Shown here: in pieces, positions 1 to 6,649 of the stretch | Layout of the letters: every line of letters begins with the position of its first letter | Numbering within the stretch: position 1 is the stretch's first letter | Origin: Bacteroidaceae bacterium | GTDB lineage: Bacteria; Bacteroidota; Bacteroidia; Bacteroidales; Bacteroidaceae | Length of the DNA: 6,751 nucleotides | Assembly: GCA_017466965.1 (NCBI GenBank) | Contig: JAFTTD010000255.1 | Span: 1 to 6,751 of the forward strand | Direction of reading: 5' to 3' | Position numbers and translations under genes: made by a program | Notes under the pieces: generated by a model | The model's database searches: none | The model's input: the letters and a program-made list of their open reading frames with translations, nothing else | What the model was told of the DNA's origin: nothing

Positions 1-98
1 AGTTCAGTAGTTGCAGGGAGTTCAGGAGTTCAGACGGTTCCATAGGACGTTATTCCTACCTTATAACCTTATAACCTAACAACCTTATAACCTTATAT
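1..98 (+). repeat. Dispersed octamer-armed intergenic repeat, copy 1 (CCTTATAA-type right arm)
   Basis: The left arm (1-34) is made of units starting at 1, 9, 19 and 27: AGTTCAGT, the decamer AGTTGCAGGG, AGTTCAGG and AGTTCAGA. A core follows (35-58) containing CCATAGGACGTT. The right arm (59-98) is five in-register octamers of the CCTTATAA type, the middle one being CCTAACAA and the last CCTTATAT. The copy may continue beyond the window's left edge. It lies downstream of the kduD terminator and directly abuts a second copy. Its unit layout matches the copies at 104-203 and 3386-3485, which is why it is treated as one defined element and not as simple low-complexity DNA. Confidence 0.85.
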
Positions 99-103
99 TA
101 GGT

Positions 104-203
104 AGTTCAGTAGTTGCAGGGAATTCAGTAGTTCATACGATACTACTGGGTGTTCTCTTTGCAAACTTAATAACTTAAAAACTCATAAACTCACAAACTT
201 AAA
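104..203 (+). repeat. Dispersed octamer-armed intergenic repeat, copy 2 (AACTTAAA-type right arm)
   Basis: Left-arm units start at 104, 112, 122 and 130, the same spacing (0, 8, 18, 26) as copy 1, again with AGTTGCAGGG as the second unit. The core (138-163) is diverged (CGATACTACTGGGTG...). The right arm (164-203) is five perfect-register octamers: AACTTAAT, AACTTAAA, AACTCATA, AACTCACA, AACTTAAA. Total length is 100 bases. It is in tandem with copy 1 but carries the other type of right arm. The AGTT of the left arm and AACT of the right arm are complementary, so a weak, periodically interrupted hairpin is possible. Confidence 0.85.
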
Positions 204-316: not shown

Positions 317-1117
317 TTAAGGCTGCTTTCCGATATATGCGAGGATACCTCCGTCAACGTAGAGAACATGACCGTTCACTGCGTCTGAAGCCTTTGATGC
401 GAGGAACACAGCTGGTCCGCCGAGTTCTTCTGGATCGAGCCAGCGTCCTGCTGGAGTCTTAGCGCAAATGAAGCTGTCGAACGGATGACGGCTTCCGTCT
501 GGCTGACGTTCGCGGAGTGGAGCTGTCTGAGGTGTAGCGATGTAACCAGGACCTATACCGTTGCACTGGATATTGTATTCACCATACTCAGAGCAGATGT
601 TGCGAGTAAGCATCTTGAGTCCTCCCTTAGCTGCAGCGTAAGCAGAAACTGTTTCGCGTCCGAGTTCAGACATCATAGAGCAGATATTGATAATTTTACC
701 TTCGCGACGTTCCATCATTTCAGGGATGACTGCACTTGAACAGATGAATGGACCAACGAGGTCAATGTCAATTACCTGCTGGAATTCAGAACGCTTCATT
801 TCGTGCATAGGTATGCGCTTAATGATACCGGCGTTGTTCACGAGGATGTCAATCTGTCCCACTTCAGCGTGTACTTTCTCTACGAGTTCCTTTACTGCGT
901 CTTCGTTTGTCACGTCACATACGTATCCGTGAACGTTCTCTATGCCTGCTTCCTTGTAGTTTGCAAGACCTTTAGCGAGAGCGTCTTCGTTGATGTCATT
1001 GAAAATGATGTTCTTGATTCCTGCCTGTGCAAATGCCTTGGCAATGTTGAATCCGATTCCGTAAGAAGCACCTGTGATCCATGCGTTCTTACCTTCTAAT
1101 GAAAATAGAGAGTTCAT
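317..1117 (-). CDS. kduD: 2-dehydro-3-deoxy-D-gluconate 5-dehydrogenase (KduD), SDR family
   Basis: This is a 266-residue classical short-chain dehydrogenase/reductase. The cofactor-binding motif TGASYGIG is at residues 15-22, NNAG at 94-97, the catalytic Ser at 147 and the YxxxK pair at Tyr160/Lys164. PG (190-191) and a C-terminal VDGG (254-257) also fit the family. KduD reduces 3-deoxy-D-glycero-2,5-hexodiulosonate to 2-keto-3-deoxygluconate with NAD(P)H in the cytoplasm. The nearby kduI supports this role over gluconate 5-dehydrogenase, the name close relatives often receive. There is no Shine-Dalgarno sequence before the ATG; the upstream bases are AT-rich, as is common in Bacteroidota. 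The gene is probably co-transcribed with kduI, but a 492-base repeat-bounded insert now lies between them, ending 18 bases before this start. A terminator follows at 230-274. Confidence 0.9.
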   Translation of the reverse strand: MNSLFSLEGKNAWITGASYGIGFNIAKAFAQAGIKNIIFNDINEDALAKGLANYKEAGIENVHGYVCDVTNEDAVKELVEKVHAEVGQIDILVNNAGIIKRIPMHEMKRSEFQQVIDIDLVGPFICSSAVIPEMMERREGKIINICSMMSELGRETVSAYAAAKGGLKMLTRNICSEYGEYNIQCNGIGPGYIATPQTAPLRERQPDGSRHPFDSFICAKTPAGRWLDPEELGGPAVFLASKASDAVNGHVLYVDGGILAYIGKQP

Positions 1118-1135: not shown

Positions 1136-1170
1136 AGGAGTTCAGAAGTTCAGGAGTTTAGGAGTTCAGA
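1136..1170 (+). repeat. Left inverted repeat of the insert (octamer arm)
   Basis: Four octamers start at 1139, 1147, 1155 and 1163 (AGTTCAGA, AGTTCAGG, AGTTTAGG, AGTTCAGA), preceded by AGG. The next bases, CGATACT, match the start of the core in the dispersed repeats (for example 5484-5489). This ties the end of the insert to the dispersed family. It is the inverted partner of 1593-1627. Confidence 0.85.
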
Positions 1171-1199
1171 CGATACTTGTCAGTCTTCCATGCCCTCTG

Positions 1200-1580
1200 T
1201 CATTCTGTTACTCCGTTGTTGTTAATAATTCCTTTACAATATGATGTCAGTAATTTACTTGTTTCTTCTATAGAGTAAAAAAGTTCGCAGTATTGCTCTT
1301 CGTTTATATAGTTCAAATCTCGTGACAAGATTATATAGTTGCGACATTCAGCAATACTTCCTTCGGATATGTTGAAGAAGCGGAGTTTATCAGCTTTGCT
1401 CAACTTTTTGTAGCCTTCGGCAATATTTGCCTCAATTGAGATAGCTGCACGTCTGAATTGTGCTGTAAGTCCAAATCTTTCTTCTTCAGGAAAGTTACGT
1501 GTCTGCTTGTAAACTATCAAAGTGAACAAATGGGCTTTTCTCCAAGCCTTGATACTTTCGAAAGTAAAAGAAGGTGCCAT
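1200..1580 (-). CDS. Four-helix-bundle protein, S23 / 23S rRNA intervening-sequence protein family
   Basis: The 126-residue, mostly helical protein has the family's recognisable signposts: an N-terminal FESIKAWRKAH (7-17), FPEEERFGL (30-38), QFRRAAISI (41-49), NIAEG (52-56) and EGSIAECRN (73-81). Length and spacing fit a complete member. Relatives are encoded in 23S rRNA intervening sequences, and the DGR accessory protein Avd shares the fold; the molecular function is unproven, with nucleic-acid binding suspected. It sits between kduI and kduD in the same direction but has no evident link to uronate metabolism. Identical octamer arrays flank it in inverted orientation. The ATG at 1580 is chosen because a second ATG at 1585 is out of frame. 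The nearest AGGAG lies 18 bases upstream, inside the repeat, too far for a normal ribosome site. No reverse transcriptase or template repeat is visible, so it is not called Avd. Confidence 0.88.
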   Translation of the reverse strand: MAPSFTFESIKAWRKAHLFTLIVYKQTRNFPEEERFGLTAQFRRAAISIEANIAEGYKKLSKADKLRFFNISEGSIAECRNYIILSRDLNYINEEQYCELFYSIEETSKLLTSYCKGIINNNGVTE

Positions 1581-1592
1581 CTCATGGTGTTT

Positions 1593-1627
1593 TCTGAACT
1601 CCTGTACTTCTGAACTTCTGAACTCCT
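1593..1627 (-). repeat. Right inverted repeat of the insert (octamer arm)
   Basis: Read on the minus strand this is AGG plus the octamers AGTTCAGA, AGTTCAGA, AGTACAGG and AGTTCAGA. It matches the left arm at 1136-1170 at 32 of 35 positions. It begins 8 bases after the kduI stop and ends 12 bases before the four-helix gene's start. In a kduI-kduD transcript the two arms could pair as a long, nearly perfect stem with the four-helix gene in the loop. Confidence 0.85.
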
Positions 1628-1633
1628 GAAGAA

Positions 1634-1641
1634 AATTATTT
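1634..1641. repeat. Possible target-site duplication, right copy (AATTATTT)
   Basis: This is an exact copy of 1121-1128 in direct orientation. It includes the kduI stop codon (TTA on the plus strand at 1636-1638). See the left copy for the argument and its weakness. Confidence 0.4.
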
Positions 1642-2478
1642 CAAATCAGTGATGAGTGAGAAGTCCTGGTCGCCGTAGTCGAGGTTTTCTCCACCCATAC
1701 CCCAAATGAATGTATAGTTGTGAGTAGCTGCGGCGCTATGGATAGACCATTCTGGTGAGAGGACAGCCTGGTCACCCTTCATCCAAATATGACGTGTTTC
1801 GTCAACTTCACCCATGAAGTGGCACACAGCATGGTCTTCTGGTACTTCAAAATAGAAGTATGCTTCCATACGACGGCTATGTACGTGAGCTGGCATAGTG
1901 TTCCATACACTGCCTGGAGCAAGTTCTGTCATACCCATCTGAATCTGGCATGTAGGGAGAACCTGATTTACAAGCATCTTATTGATGTTACGGTCGTTTG
2001 AGCCTTCGAGTGAACCCATGTGAGCAACAACAGCATCAGCCTTAGTAACTTTCTTGCATGGGTAGCTTGTGTGAGCAGTGCAAGAGTTGAAATAGAATTT
2101 AGCTGGATTTTTAGGATCCTTGCTCTCAAACACTACGTCACGATCGCCAGAACCAATATAGAGTGCTTCCTTGTAATCGAGCTCGAATGTTTCGTCGCCA
2201 GCCTTTACGATTCCAGGACCACCGACATTGAACATGCCGATTTCACGACGAGTAGTGAAATATGGAGCTTTCAAAGGGTCAATAGCTTCAAGTTTCAGCT
2301 CCTCTTTTACTGGCATTGCGCCACCGACAACCATTCGGTCGTACATTGAATATACCATGTTCACTTCATCAGCAGCAAATACTCTTTCAATCAAAAAGTC
2401 TCTGCGAATGCGTTTTGTGTCATAATTTTTTGCGTCTTCCGGATGAGCCGCATAACGAATTTCATAATTTGTCTTCAT
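1636..2478 (-). CDS. kduI: 5-dehydro-4-deoxy-D-glucuronate isomerase (KduI)
   Basis: KduI is a cupin-fold, metal-dependent isomerase that converts 5-keto-4-deoxyuronate (the open-chain product of unsaturated uronates from pectin and related polymers) into 3-deoxy-D-glycero-2,5-hexodiulosonate, the KduD substrate. The 280-residue length is typical. The metal-binding pattern PAHVHSRRMEAYFYFE (196-211) supplies His198, His200 and Glu205, and His247 is the probable fourth ligand; all four sit two residues after the E. coli ligands (196, 198, 203, 245) as I recall them. The N-terminal MKTNYEIRYA and the IRRDFLIERVF segment (24-34) also fit the family. It is the first gene of the kdu operon, with a candidate promoter about 85 bases upstream. 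The stop codon overlaps the possible target duplication of the insert that follows. Confidence 0.94.
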   Translation of the reverse strand: MKTNYEIRYAAHPEDAKNYDTKRIRRDFLIERVFAADEVNMVYSMYDRMVVGGAMPVKEELKLEAIDPLKAPYFTTRREIGMFNVGGPGIVKAGDETFELDYKEALYIGSGDRDVVFESKDPKNPAKFYFNSCTAHTSYPCKKVTKADAVVAHMGSLEGSNDRNINKMLVNQVLPTCQIQMGMTELAPGSVWNTMPAHVHSRRMEAYFYFEVPEDHAVCHFMGEVDETRHIWMKGDQAVLSPEWSIHSAAATHNYTFIWGMGGENLDYGDQDFSLITDLK

Positions 2479-3335: not shown

Positions 3336-3377
3336 GGGAGTTCAGAAGTTCGGGAGTACATTTTAATTATGAATTAA
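3336..3377 (+). repeat. Partial octamer arm followed by an AT palindrome
   Basis: A short arm (3336-3359, units such as GAGTTCAG and AAGTTCGG) leads into TTTAATTATGAATTA (3362-3376). That 15-mer recurs exactly at 5550-5564, where it again follows a short AGTT arm. TTAATT-ATG-AATTAA (3363-3377) is a perfect 6-bp inverted repeat. The block lies in the pyrE-SRPBCC gap, directly before repeat copy 3. The short TGGG/CCCA pairing just after pyrE is too weak to call a terminator. Confidence 0.65.
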
Positions 3378-3385
3378 GAATTTGG

Positions 3386-3485
3386 AGTTCAGGAGTTGCA
3401 GGGAGTTCGGGAGTTCAGACGTTACCATAGGACGTTTTCATTGAGAACTTAAAAACTCAAAAACTAAAGAACTTAATAACTTAAA
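3386..3485 (+). repeat. Dispersed octamer-armed intergenic repeat, copy 3 (AACTTAAA-type right arm)
   Basis: Left-arm units start at 3386, 3394, 3404 and 3412, exactly the 0, 8, 18, 26 spacing of copies 1 and 2, with AGTTGCAGGG again second. The core (3420-3445) holds ACCATAGGACGTT; 3416-3436 differs from 31-51 at 2 of 21 positions. The right arm (3446-3485) is five in-register octamers: AACTTAAA, AACTCAAA, AACTAAAG, AACTTAAT, AACTTAAA. Length is exactly 100 bases, as for copy 2. It lies between pyrE and the SRPBCC gene and runs into a trailer that touches the next start codon. Confidence 0.88.
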
Positions 3486-3511: not shown

Positions 3512-3988
3512 ATGGCAAAATATGAGAGTGGCGTGAAGCTAGTTGGCTATCCGCAAGCGAATGTATTCGATAAATTGGCTGATTTGAACAACCTGTCTTC
3601 AATACGCGAAAAAATTAATGATCCTGTTGCTCAGGACAAGCTTAAAGGGCAAATTCCTGAGGATAAGTTTGAACAGGTGAAGAAACAGCTTGAGTCTATG
3701 ACTTTTGATGCAGATTCAGCAAGTGTGAATGTCGCACCAATTGGCAATGTTTCTATACGTATTGTAGAGCGTGAACCAGACAAATGCATAAAGTTCGAAT
3801 CTGTAAATTCACCTATTCCTTTTAAGATGTGGATTCAGATATTGCCAACAACAGAGTTGACAAGCAAGATGCGTCTTACTGTTGATGCGAGTCTTAATAT
3901 GTTTATTAAAGGAATGGTGGAAAAACCGCTTAAGGAAGGAATAGAGAAACTTGCAGATGTGTTGGCTGCTATTCCTTATAATGACTAA
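3512..3988 (+). CDS. SRPBCC / START-like domain protein
   Basis: This is a 158-residue cytoplasmic protein with no signal peptide or membrane segment. The layout fits the SRPBCC (polyketide cyclase / START-like) fold: an N-terminal strand (YESGVKLVGYP), a long helical stretch (about 16-65) with DKLKGQIPEDKFEQVKKQL, then alternating strands SVNVAPIGNVSIRIVE and CIKFESV, and a long C-terminal helix (132-153). Members bind hydrophobic ligands in a cavity; the ligand here is unknown and no catalytic residues can be assigned. The gene ends 20 bases before argH and is likely co-transcribed with it. I recall this pyrE, SRPBCC, argH order from other Bacteroidota but cannot check it. The start at 3512 is preferred because the conserved repeat trailer ends exactly there. 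Confidence 0.75.
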   Translation: MAKYESGVKLVGYPQANVFDKLADLNNLSSIREKINDPVAQDKLKGQIPEDKFEQVKKQLESMTFDADSASVNVAPIGNVSIRIVEREPDKCIKFESVNSPIPFKMWIQILPTTELTSKMRLTVDASLNMFIKGMVEKPLKEGIEKLADVLAAIPYND

Positions 3989-5418: not shown

Positions 5419-5451
5419 AAAGGGACTATACTATGTAAATTATATATCCGG

Positions 5452-5532
5452 AGTTCAGAAGTTCTGGAGTTCAGAAGTTCAGACGATACCACAGGATGAC
5501 ATTGCTTATCTTACAACTTTATAACCTCATTT
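5452..5532 (+). repeat. Dispersed octamer-armed intergenic repeat, copy 4 (CCTTATAA-like right arm)
   Basis: The left arm is four perfect-register octamers (5452, 5460, 5468, 5476: AGTTCAGA, AGTTCTGG, AGTTCAGA, AGTTCAGA), without the decamer of copies 1-3. The core begins CGATACCACAGGATG (5484-5498), clearly related to CCATAGGACG. The right arm is shortened to three units (5509-5532: TCTTACAA, CTTTATAA, CCTCATTT). The offset from left-arm start to right-arm start is 57 bases, close to the 58-60 of the other copies. Confidence 0.78.
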
Positions 5533-5617: not shown

Positions 5618-6532
5618 ATGGACCAGGAGTTTGAAAAAATTCGTAAGCGCTATTATCAGTATTTGAAATTGGAACGTGCTTTTTCTGCTAATACTCTTGA
5701 TGCTTATTTGAGGGACTTAGATAAATTCCTGACATTTATAGACGGTGAAGGAGTCGGGCCTTTTGATGTAAGGCTTGATGTCCTTCACCGTTTTTCTGCT
5801 GCCATGATTGATGTAGGGATTCATTCCAGTTCGCTTTCTCGAATACTGTCTGGGGTTAGAAGCTTTTATCATTTCTTGTTTATTGAAGACCTCATAAATG
5901 CAGATCCTACAGAATTGTTGGATTTTCCTAAGCAGGCGAGGCATTTGCCGGATGTGTTGACTGTGGAAGAGGTAGATATGATTGAAAATGCAATAGATCT
6001 TTCTTCTCCTGAGGGTCAACGGAATAAGGCTATAATTGAAGTTTTGTTCAGTTGTGGACTCAGAGTGAGCGAACTGTGTAATCTGAGGATGCAGGATCTT
6101 TATTTAGACGAAGGATTCATCAGAGTGATGGGTAAAGGGTCAAAGCAACGTCTTGTTCCTATTTCGCATAAGGCAATAAAGGATTTAGCTCTTTATTTCA
6201 TAGAACGCAATCAGATTGACATCAAGCCTGAATACAGTGATTATGTTTTTGTCAGCAAGCGCCGTTGTAAAGGGCTTTCAAGGATTATGGTTTTCCATTT
6301 TATAAAAGAATTGGTTGAGATAACTGGAATAAAGAAAACTGTAAGTCCGCATACTTTCCGTCATAGCTTTGCTACGTGTTTGCTTGAAGGTGGGGCAAAC
6401 TTACGCGCTATCCAAGCTATGTTGGGGCATGAGTCTGTGGGCACGACTGAAATATATACGCACATGGACACATCAAGACTGCGCGAGGAAATAATATTGT
6501 ATCACCCGAGAAACAGGAAGGGAAGGAGTTAA
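5618..6532 (+). CDS. xerD: Tyrosine recombinase XerD
   Basis: This is a 304-residue site-specific recombinase. XerD acts with a partner at chromosomal dif sites to resolve chromosome dimers. The N-terminal SAM-like core-binding domain covers about residues 1-95, including YLKLERAFSANTLDAYLRDL (15-34). The catalytic domain follows, with Arg149 in SCGLRVSEL, Lys173 in GKGSKQRLVPI, His245 and Arg248 in SPHTFRHSFAT, His271 in LGHESVGTTEIYTH and the nucleophile Tyr280. All catalytic residues are present and the length is normal, which favours a housekeeping XerD over an integrase of a mobile element. The final residues, after the usual ending around HPRN (295-298), run into an octamer array that supplies the last codons and the TAA. 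The ATG follows the repeat trailer directly. Confidence 0.9.
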   Translation: MDQEFEKIRKRYYQYLKLERAFSANTLDAYLRDLDKFLTFIDGEGVGPFDVRLDVLHRFSAAMIDVGIHSSSLSRILSGVRSFYHFLFIEDLINADPTELLDFPKQARHLPDVLTVEEVDMIENAIDLSSPEGQRNKAIIEVLFSCGLRVSELCNLRMQDLYLDEGFIRVMGKGSKQRLVPISHKAIKDLALYFIERNQIDIKPEYSDYVFVSKRRCKGLSRIMVFHFIKELVEITGIKKTVSPHTFRHSFATCLLEGGANLRAIQAMLGHESVGTTEIYTHMDTSRLREEIILYHPRNRKGRS

Positions 6533-6649
6533 GTAGTTAAGGAGTTAAGAAGTTAAAGAAGTTAAAGGAGTTAAAAGGGGGAGTTAAAATATGGGAGTTA
6601 AAAGGGGACGAATGCACAGGGCGTTATATCCTACCTTATAATCTCATTT
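6527..6649 (+). repeat. Dispersed intergenic repeat, copy 5, overlapping the xerD stop
   Basis: AGTT units start at 6527, 6535, 6543, 6551, 6560 and 6569 (spacing 8-9), then more loosely at 6582 and 6596. The units are of the AGTTAAGG type. The core (6608-6633) reads ACGAATGCACAGGGCGTTATATCCTA in two readable halves, ACGAATGCACAGGGCG and TTATATCCTA, and lines up with copy 1 (ACGGTTCCATAGGACG, TTATTCCTA). One CCTTATAA unit (6634-6641) and TCTCATTT (6642-6649) follow, as in copy 4. The first unit lies inside xerD. Confidence 0.75.

Follow-up and report, generated by a model that had tools for sequence, protein, structure and literature searches.

The stretch of DNA analysed here (6,751 nt, called the window in the following) carries a small gene of the S23/IVP four-helix-bundle family in the gap between kduI and an SDR gene. 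All three genes lie on the minus strand and are transcribed in the order kduI, S23 gene, SDR gene (Table 1). The S23 protein scored above the cut-offs of two family models (121.8 bits vs. 33.8 for PF05635; 112.5 bits vs. 24 for TIGR02436, four helix bundle, E 1.1e-32) and has relatives in the PDB (2gsc, E 9.4e-18; 2rld, E 1.9e-5). Tandem octamer arrays flank the gene on both sides as an inverted repeat, and it is the sole ORF of at least 70 aa between these arms. A first-pass annotation had described an S23-type gene adjoining kduI and bracketed by 35-base inverted repeats with 32 matching positions, the ends of which lie 8 nt from the kduI stop codon and 18 nt from the start codon of the next gene. 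This description was borne out by the family searches (NF002091 for kduI), by the arm alignment and by the ORF coordinates, and when the arm pair was extended to 43 nt, 37 positions matched. The same annotation had called the downstream gene kduD, but this name has to be withdrawn since the protein stays below the KduD cut-off (TIGR01832, 204 bits vs. 339) and scores best as a gluconate 5-dehydrogenase (NF005488). By kdu junction we mean the kduI-SDR gap, and all comparisons were made on genomes of relatives, not on the window's own genome.

Table 1. Features of the window (positions in nt of the 6,751-nt stretch)
Feature	Positions	Strand	Remarks
Same-flavour array patch ending in TTCAGACGGTTCC	17..41	+	
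Same-flavour array patch ending in TTCATACGATACT	102..144	+	
SDR gene, gluconate 5-dehydrogenase-like, downstream of unit	317..1117	-	NF005488 470 bits, cut-off 369
3' (downstream) arm	1136..1170	-	inverted octamers, 32/35 complementary to upstream arm
3' arm inner end, TTCAGACGATACT	1165..1177	+	motif common to other window array patches; 5 matches vs. 0.38 expected
S23/IVP four-helix-bundle gene, 126 aa	1200..1580	-	PF05635 E 1.8e-35
5' (upstream) arm on S23 strand	1593..1627	-	four AGTTCAGR-type octamers, tandem, 8-nt spacing
kduI (5-dehydro-4-deoxy-D-glucuronate isomerase), upstream of unit	1636..2478	-	NF002091 418 bits, cut-off 250
Same-flavour array patch, pyrE/next ORF gap, ending in TTCAGACGTTACC	3384..3426	+	single extra copy 3337-3345
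Same-flavour array patch, argH/XerD-like recombinase gene gap, ending in TTCAGACGATACC	5450..5490	+	
Sister-flavour array patch (GGAGTTAAG), end of recombinase gene	6525..6549	+	

The arrays extend beyond the S23 unit, with five more patches present in the window: four share the flavour of the arms (17-33, 102-128, 3384-3418, 5450-5482) and one is of a sister flavour (6525-6549). With up to one mismatch allowed, GGAGTTCAG occurs 24 times in the window vs. 1.4 expected copies, a number reached by none of 200 shuffled sequences; seven of these copies lie within the two arms and two inside the SDR gene. An ORF of 158 aa at 3512-3988 matched no Pfam family, and its score for chorismate mutase AroQ was weak (21.7 bits vs. 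a cut-off of 74.15).

For the RNA of the unit, structure prediction gave -135.6 kcal/mol vs. -101.0 kcal/mol in 100 shuffles (z -6.1), with the arms forming the outer stem. Both this fold and the arm complementarity agree with the complementary termini that characterize the intervening sequences (IVS) of rRNA. However, the unit lies between kduI and the SDR gene and not within a 23S rRNA gene, and an Rfam search of the window at gathering scores yielded no match to a known RNA family. When the S23 protein was searched against the defence proteins of PADLOC, no match was obtained either, and its reading as a listed defence protein was dropped.

Scanning genome contigs for KduI, we kept 80 loci. 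An SDR gene lies near kduI in all of them and an S23 gene in between in five (L001, L007, L013, L038, L072). Each of these five genes is located inside an inverted pair, three of which pass the periodicity cut, and within the 935,512 nt of kdu loci 70 inverted pairs were found, 17 of them with both arms periodic. The arm flavour, assigned by eye, was AGTTCAGG in the window and L001, AGTTTAGG in L007 and L072, and AGTGTAGG in L013 and L038. A search of family genomes with the window protein added three further S23 genes at this junction (L187, L189, L190). Counting the window and eight relatives, the junction thus holds S23 in nine genomes, and all nine copies belong to a single clade of the S23 tree. 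The kdu site is therefore not a fresh landing. The close relative L002 has lost most of the gene; its near-empty site must be read as loss because the 3' end of S23 and the right arm remain, and it does not serve as a simple proof of insertion. Only scraps are left at the kdu junction of L003 and L025. Relatives with the same gene at this site and no flanking octamers, which the first-pass annotation had considered as a counter-case, were not encountered among the five S23 genes of the contig scan. At one kdu junction (L049, 6991-7461), a GxxExxY gene (PF13366, E 4.4e-35; TIGR04256, E 2.4e-37) replaces S23, and by eye this gene is also flanked by inverted repeats. The kdu junction of Xylanibacter rarus (L055, 6865-7015) contains a gene-less inverted array pair of the GTTAAAG type. 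Long intergenic blocks of another kind (CCTCCTAAATCCCCCTT or similar) occupy this junction in L064, where they are repeated, and in L070.

S23 genes beyond this junction were collected by PF05635 searches, in which only matches over the cut-off were counted (eight genomes, 21 matches in six of them; 61 family genomes, 23 with a match; 148 phylum genomes, 113 matches), and by a search of 399 family genomes with the window protein (71 with a match at 1e-20). Best matches were taken first, so that the sample is not random (for the phylum search, the best 30 of a longer list). This yielded 162 distinct S23 genes, and 159 were usable after three with short flanks had been dropped. When upstream and downstream flanks were compared in inverted orientation, 113 of the 159 genes scored above the 95th percentile of mismatched flank pairs (59 above the 99th), a control in which flavours are common to several loci. 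The corresponding figure was 12 of 159 for same-strand (direct) comparison and 1 of 148 for ordinary genes of 100-200 codons. Below the 95th-percentile threshold remained 46 S23 genes, and by a separate measure 10 of the 30 phylum-wide loci failed. Taken together, these data indicate that bracketing by inverted arrays is the usual layout of the sampled S23 genes and is not a coincidence, and that the arms stay alike while the repeat unit varies. S23 genes elsewhere that lack arrays, which would have made the bracketing coincidental, are thus not the rule in this sample. The expectation that these genes are bracketed by AGTTCAGG arrays held for the bracketing but failed for the motif: units differ per locus, mostly each locus has its own, usually of 7-10 nt, and AGTTCAGG as a mark of all S23 genes is ruled out. 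Among 111 arms scoring at least 20, the best period was 7 nt in 44, 8 nt in 25, 9 nt in 16 and 10 nt in 14, so that 99 fall within 7-10 nt; purine-rich 5' arms were seen in 96.

A plasmid search matched 26 records, mostly cyanobacterial. Sixteen of them were analysed, and seven of these loci exceeded the 99th percentile (own mean 21.3 vs. 11.4 for mismatched pairs). Among these seven are plasmid L304, with long AAAAGCT arrays between cas6 and cas4, and the arrays of L311 (Gemmatimonadota) and L308 (Alphaproteobacteria). On three cyanobacterial plasmids (L302, L304, L305), S23 is situated amid CRISPR genes (cas10/cmr3, cas6/cas4); the inverted arrays are clear in L304 and L305 and weaker in L302.

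The sampled S23 genes occupy 101 distinct junctions, 26 of which are common to several genomes (84 genes). At these shared junctions, the left-right arm score within a locus was 26.7 vs. 18.0 for cross-genome pairs. The own score was higher than the cross mean in 70 of the 84 genes but higher than every cross pair at its own junction in only 38, and genes of one junction are not independent in this comparison, so that the p value of its Wilcoxon test is too small. It can be seen that the two arms change together, although the sequence of the unit varies from locus to locus and, within a single junction, from species to species; L087 and L088, for instance, share a junction but carry AGGAGTTAA-type and AGAAGATA-type arms, respectively.

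A tree of 153 S23 proteins (six of the 159 dropped) was calculated from 105 columns, a small number that leaves many of its forks unresolved. It places the kdu copies in one clade of 11 proteins (96, starred). Inside this clade we also found L186, located at an ftsY-rimO junction, and L188, whose junction is a different one next to a methyltransferase gene; the branch joining them to a kdu copy has a value of 94. Arms of the AGTTCAG type flank L186 on both sides and L188 on the upstream side only. (Here and below, ftsY, etfA, purH, mreB, rpsB, tsf and the methyltransferase gene adjoining L188 were identified by eye; rimO was confirmed with TIGR01125, 438 bits vs. a cut-off of 357.) The kdu loci of L089 and L190 are 91% (kduI) and 92% (SDR gene) identical at the nucleotide level, whereas their S23 genes share 63.5% and their arm flavours differ. 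The KduI and SDR proteins group L190 with L089 (98/96*), and this kdu gene tree conflicts with the S23 tree. In view of the conflict and the differing arms, the S23 gene and the arms of L089/L190 were probably exchanged jointly. Over 36 pairs, kdu and S23 identities are uncorrelated (Spearman 0.07), which speaks against strict vertical inheritance at kdu. A single origin per junction finds no support at the etfA/acyl-CoA dehydrogenase junction (by eye), where there are ten label changes, at least four of them forced by starred branches.

For the ftsY-rimO junction, RimO was matched in 18 of the 19 genomes of one genus. Inspected by eye, these 18 sites comprise one full S23 unit, three gene-less hairpins, one one-arm site, two short remnants, one other repeat, nine empty sites and one uninformative site, and the inspection revealed no target-site duplication. 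Arms and gene are moved or replaced together. Of the earlier proposal of an IVS-like or mobile unit, the layout and the joint movement or exchange of arms and gene stand (L186/L188, L089/L190, ftsY-rimO); a transposition event or an enzyme was not observed.

Next to co-directional neighbours, S23 lies in sense orientation at 78 distinct junctions and in antisense at one; 12 junctions were mixed and 10 unknown (n = 101). Since the palindromic ends are directionless, this bias suggests either that S23 is expressed by read-through or that insertion is strand-specific. Plasmids follow the rule less strictly: 10 of the 16 loci were sense, three antisense (L303, L306, L310), one mixed and two had unannotated neighbours. 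The three antisense loci are on cyanobacterial plasmids and oppose the annotated neighbours on either side; the S23 gene of L306 lies between two ribonucleotide reductase genes.

We favour, with moderate confidence, the reading of a hairpin-ended S23 cassette, which would correspond in protein operons to the S23 intervening sequences of 23S rRNA and be exchanged as a unit. In this cassette the S23 gene follows a short tandem array and is itself followed by the inverted form of that array, all of it lying between one stop codon and the next start.

Gene-less hairpins were surveyed in G006, the genome of the close relative L002 (1,090,447 nt scanned). This genome contains 59 periodic pairs, 49 of them with loops below 250 nt (47 after removal of two duplicates). 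Of the ten pairs with loops of at least 250 nt, eight were inspected: five enclose S23 or GxxExxY, two are without an ORF above 60 aa, and in one case two hairpins stand on either side of an unrelated 272-aa ORF. When the gene-less hairpins were compared with the flanks of the genome's own six cassettes (three S23 and three GxxExxY genes), the mean score was 17.3 vs. 10.4 for foreign sets, i.e. random draws of three S23 and three GxxExxY genes under one flank rule for all, and none of 500 draws reached the own value. Individually, 28 of the 47 hairpins matched, and 24 of 40 when those within 6 kb of a cassette were excluded. Other flank rules gave 17.3 vs. 10.5 with 29 of 47 matching (unequal windows) and 15.0 vs. 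9.8 with 21 of 49 (L362 arm misplaced). The ORF of the L362 cassette extends into its arm. Gene-less kin were found for five of the six cassettes (9, 8, 5, 4 and 2 hairpins); by the equal rule L087 has none, and 19 of the 47 hairpins match no own cassette. For the flavour of the window itself, array patches were seen within the window. A further genome, G008, in which no S23 was detected, nevertheless contains gene-less hairpins that share the flavour of the window, and from this we conclude that the gene is not needed for their persistence, unless the assembly is incomplete. Gene-less hairpins of this flavour are located between housekeeping genes at L183 (1475-1600) and L184 (825-965), by eye purH-mreB and rpsB-tsf, in a genome where S23 was not detected.

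In REP/REPIN systems with RAYT, short inverted repeats lie on both sides of a gene, and gene-less inverted pairs of the same flavour occur elsewhere in the genome. A REP/RAYT- or MITE-like reading, in which the arrays are the element, their spread is driven flavour by flavour by S23 or GxxExxY as enzyme or helper, and the gene-less hairpins are non-autonomous copies, is possible, but we do not consider it probable. It is favoured by the fit of the G006 hairpins to their own cassettes and by the GxxExxY genes, since PF13366 is a PD-(D/E)XK nuclease family and part of its loci share the layout (13 of 30 in the phylum sample score at least 20, the 99th percentile of mismatched pairs being 19). 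On the other hand, there is no transposase, we know of no catalytic activity of S23, the G008 hairpins persist without a detected S23 gene, and the cassette without gene-less kin and the 19 unmatched hairpins in G006 do not fit. Moreover, a 400-kb stretch of genome G133 has two periodic pairs, both around S23 genes, and no short hairpin; its S23 genes were placed from the PF05635-search coordinates and the printed ORFs, and at least one of them (1665224) lies outside any periodic pair.

We regard it as rather unlikely, but worth weighing, that S23 is a passenger, the arrays arising in intergenic DNA by slippage and arm-to-arm copying while the gene, spread otherwise, lands or is kept in hairpins that serve as recombination landing pads. 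The excess of short gene-less hairpins over gene-bearing pairs in G006 (49 with loops below 250 nt vs. 5 enclosing S23 or GxxExxY) would fit, as would the several S23 lineages at one junction. The arm mismatches fit this reading as well, and they count against the RNA-stem part of the cassette reading. Read in the sense RNA, 157 were of the G-U type vs. 214 of the A-C type (0.42, bootstrap 0.37-0.48). Wobble-pair covariation as evidence for an RNA stem thus went the opposite way, selection on such a stem is not supported, and DNA-level copying may explain the matching of the arms better. However, ordinary small genes seldom sit in such pairs (the 1 of 148 given above), and the 78-to-1 sense excess would need an extra reason. 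It is quite improbable that S23 belongs permanently to the operon and serves the host, with arms that act as bidirectional terminators or as hairpins stabilising the mRNA, since, despite persistence at some junctions (the kdu clade) and a low dN/dS (0.02-0.11 in the three measurable of six pairs, the other three being saturated), S23 is patchy at kdu (5 of 80 loci), was swapped between the close relatives L089 and L190 and occupies 101 distinct junctions.

Within the cassette reading, S23 is probably expressed by read-through of the operon in which it lies. The arms may pair in this transcript and form an extended duplex open to RNase III cleavage of the kind known from rRNA, and the insertion might be tolerated through this cutting; such excision from mRNA is inferred from the rRNA case. 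Copying of one arm onto the other in DNA would keep the arms matched, and the four-helix protein is a putative arm-binding protein. As a broader and speculative proposal, S23 and GxxExxY may be hallmark genes of an unnamed class of elements, array-armed hairpin cassettes with a gene-bearing master and gene-less derivatives for each flavour; the protein might recognise its own flavour and drive its spread or upkeep, and the rRNA IVS would be a special case. If the rRNA copies are one outpost of an operon cassette, the function of S23 and the origin of the IVS become testable, namely via the flavour bound by each S23 protein, the excision of the unit from mRNA and the gene-less hairpins as offspring. 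In that case, some of the puzzling short repeats in the intergenic DNA of Bacteroidota and Cyanobacteria could also be traced to such cassettes. The same packaging around most of the S23 relatives checked makes the spread of S23 genes testable.

Several known systems resemble the unit in part. The STRRs of cyanobacteria are direct repeats of heptamers. Direct-repeat arrays of the TAACTGA heptamer have been described in Beggiatoaceae, Cyanobacteria and Bacteroidetes, at intergenic sites and often near start codons (PMC4679880); the S23 arrays share the intergenic heptamers but form inverted pairs, and a term search of that paper for "S23" or "four helix" gave no hit. The Avd protein of diversity-generating retroelements is a distant sequence relative of S23 (NF033474, 30.5 bits, below the cut-off of 80), but unlike in these retroelements no reverse transcriptase is present among the seven window ORFs scanned. 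Among the matches listed in an open-access literature search, no title or abstract mentions S23 or GxxExxY genes packaged between inverted arrays at junctions of protein genes. With insertion sequences and MITEs the unit shares inverted ends; it contains no transposase, and the ftsY-rimO sites showed no duplication by eye.

RAYT is a Y1 (TnpA_REP) transposase, and REPs are palindromes of about 20 nt. As in REP/RAYT systems, inverted short repeats surround a gene and gene-less pairs of the same flavour occur, here in the relative G006 for five of six cassettes, but S23 is not a Y1 transposase, the S23 gene is the only ORF of at least 70 aa between the arms, and the arms are tandem arrays of 7-10 nt units instead of such palindromes.

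Closest are the IVS of 23S rRNA. According to a study on Coxiella (PMC4990558), the IVS there has a 28-bp terminal stem and, ahead of the S23p start codon, tandem heptamers that vary in copy number between strains; RNase III cleaves at the first repeat. Its authors consider that S23p is probably not expressed from the IVS, name orthologs in Leptospira, Brucella and Xanthomonas, and describe S23 proteins as having no known function and the function and origin of rRNA IVS as unclear (PMC4990558). To judge from this source, the cassette and the rRNA IVS have in common an S23-type gene, complementary termini (a stem of about 30 bp), a sense ORF and a scattered distribution, and with the Coxiella IVS the cassette shares the tandem short repeats in front of the S23 ORF. 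In contrast to the rRNA IVS, the cassette is located between protein genes, at many junctions, and has gene-less relatives. Taken together, the unit is closest to an IVS in the way it works, and the gene-less hairpins of a relative accompany it as a REP-like population.
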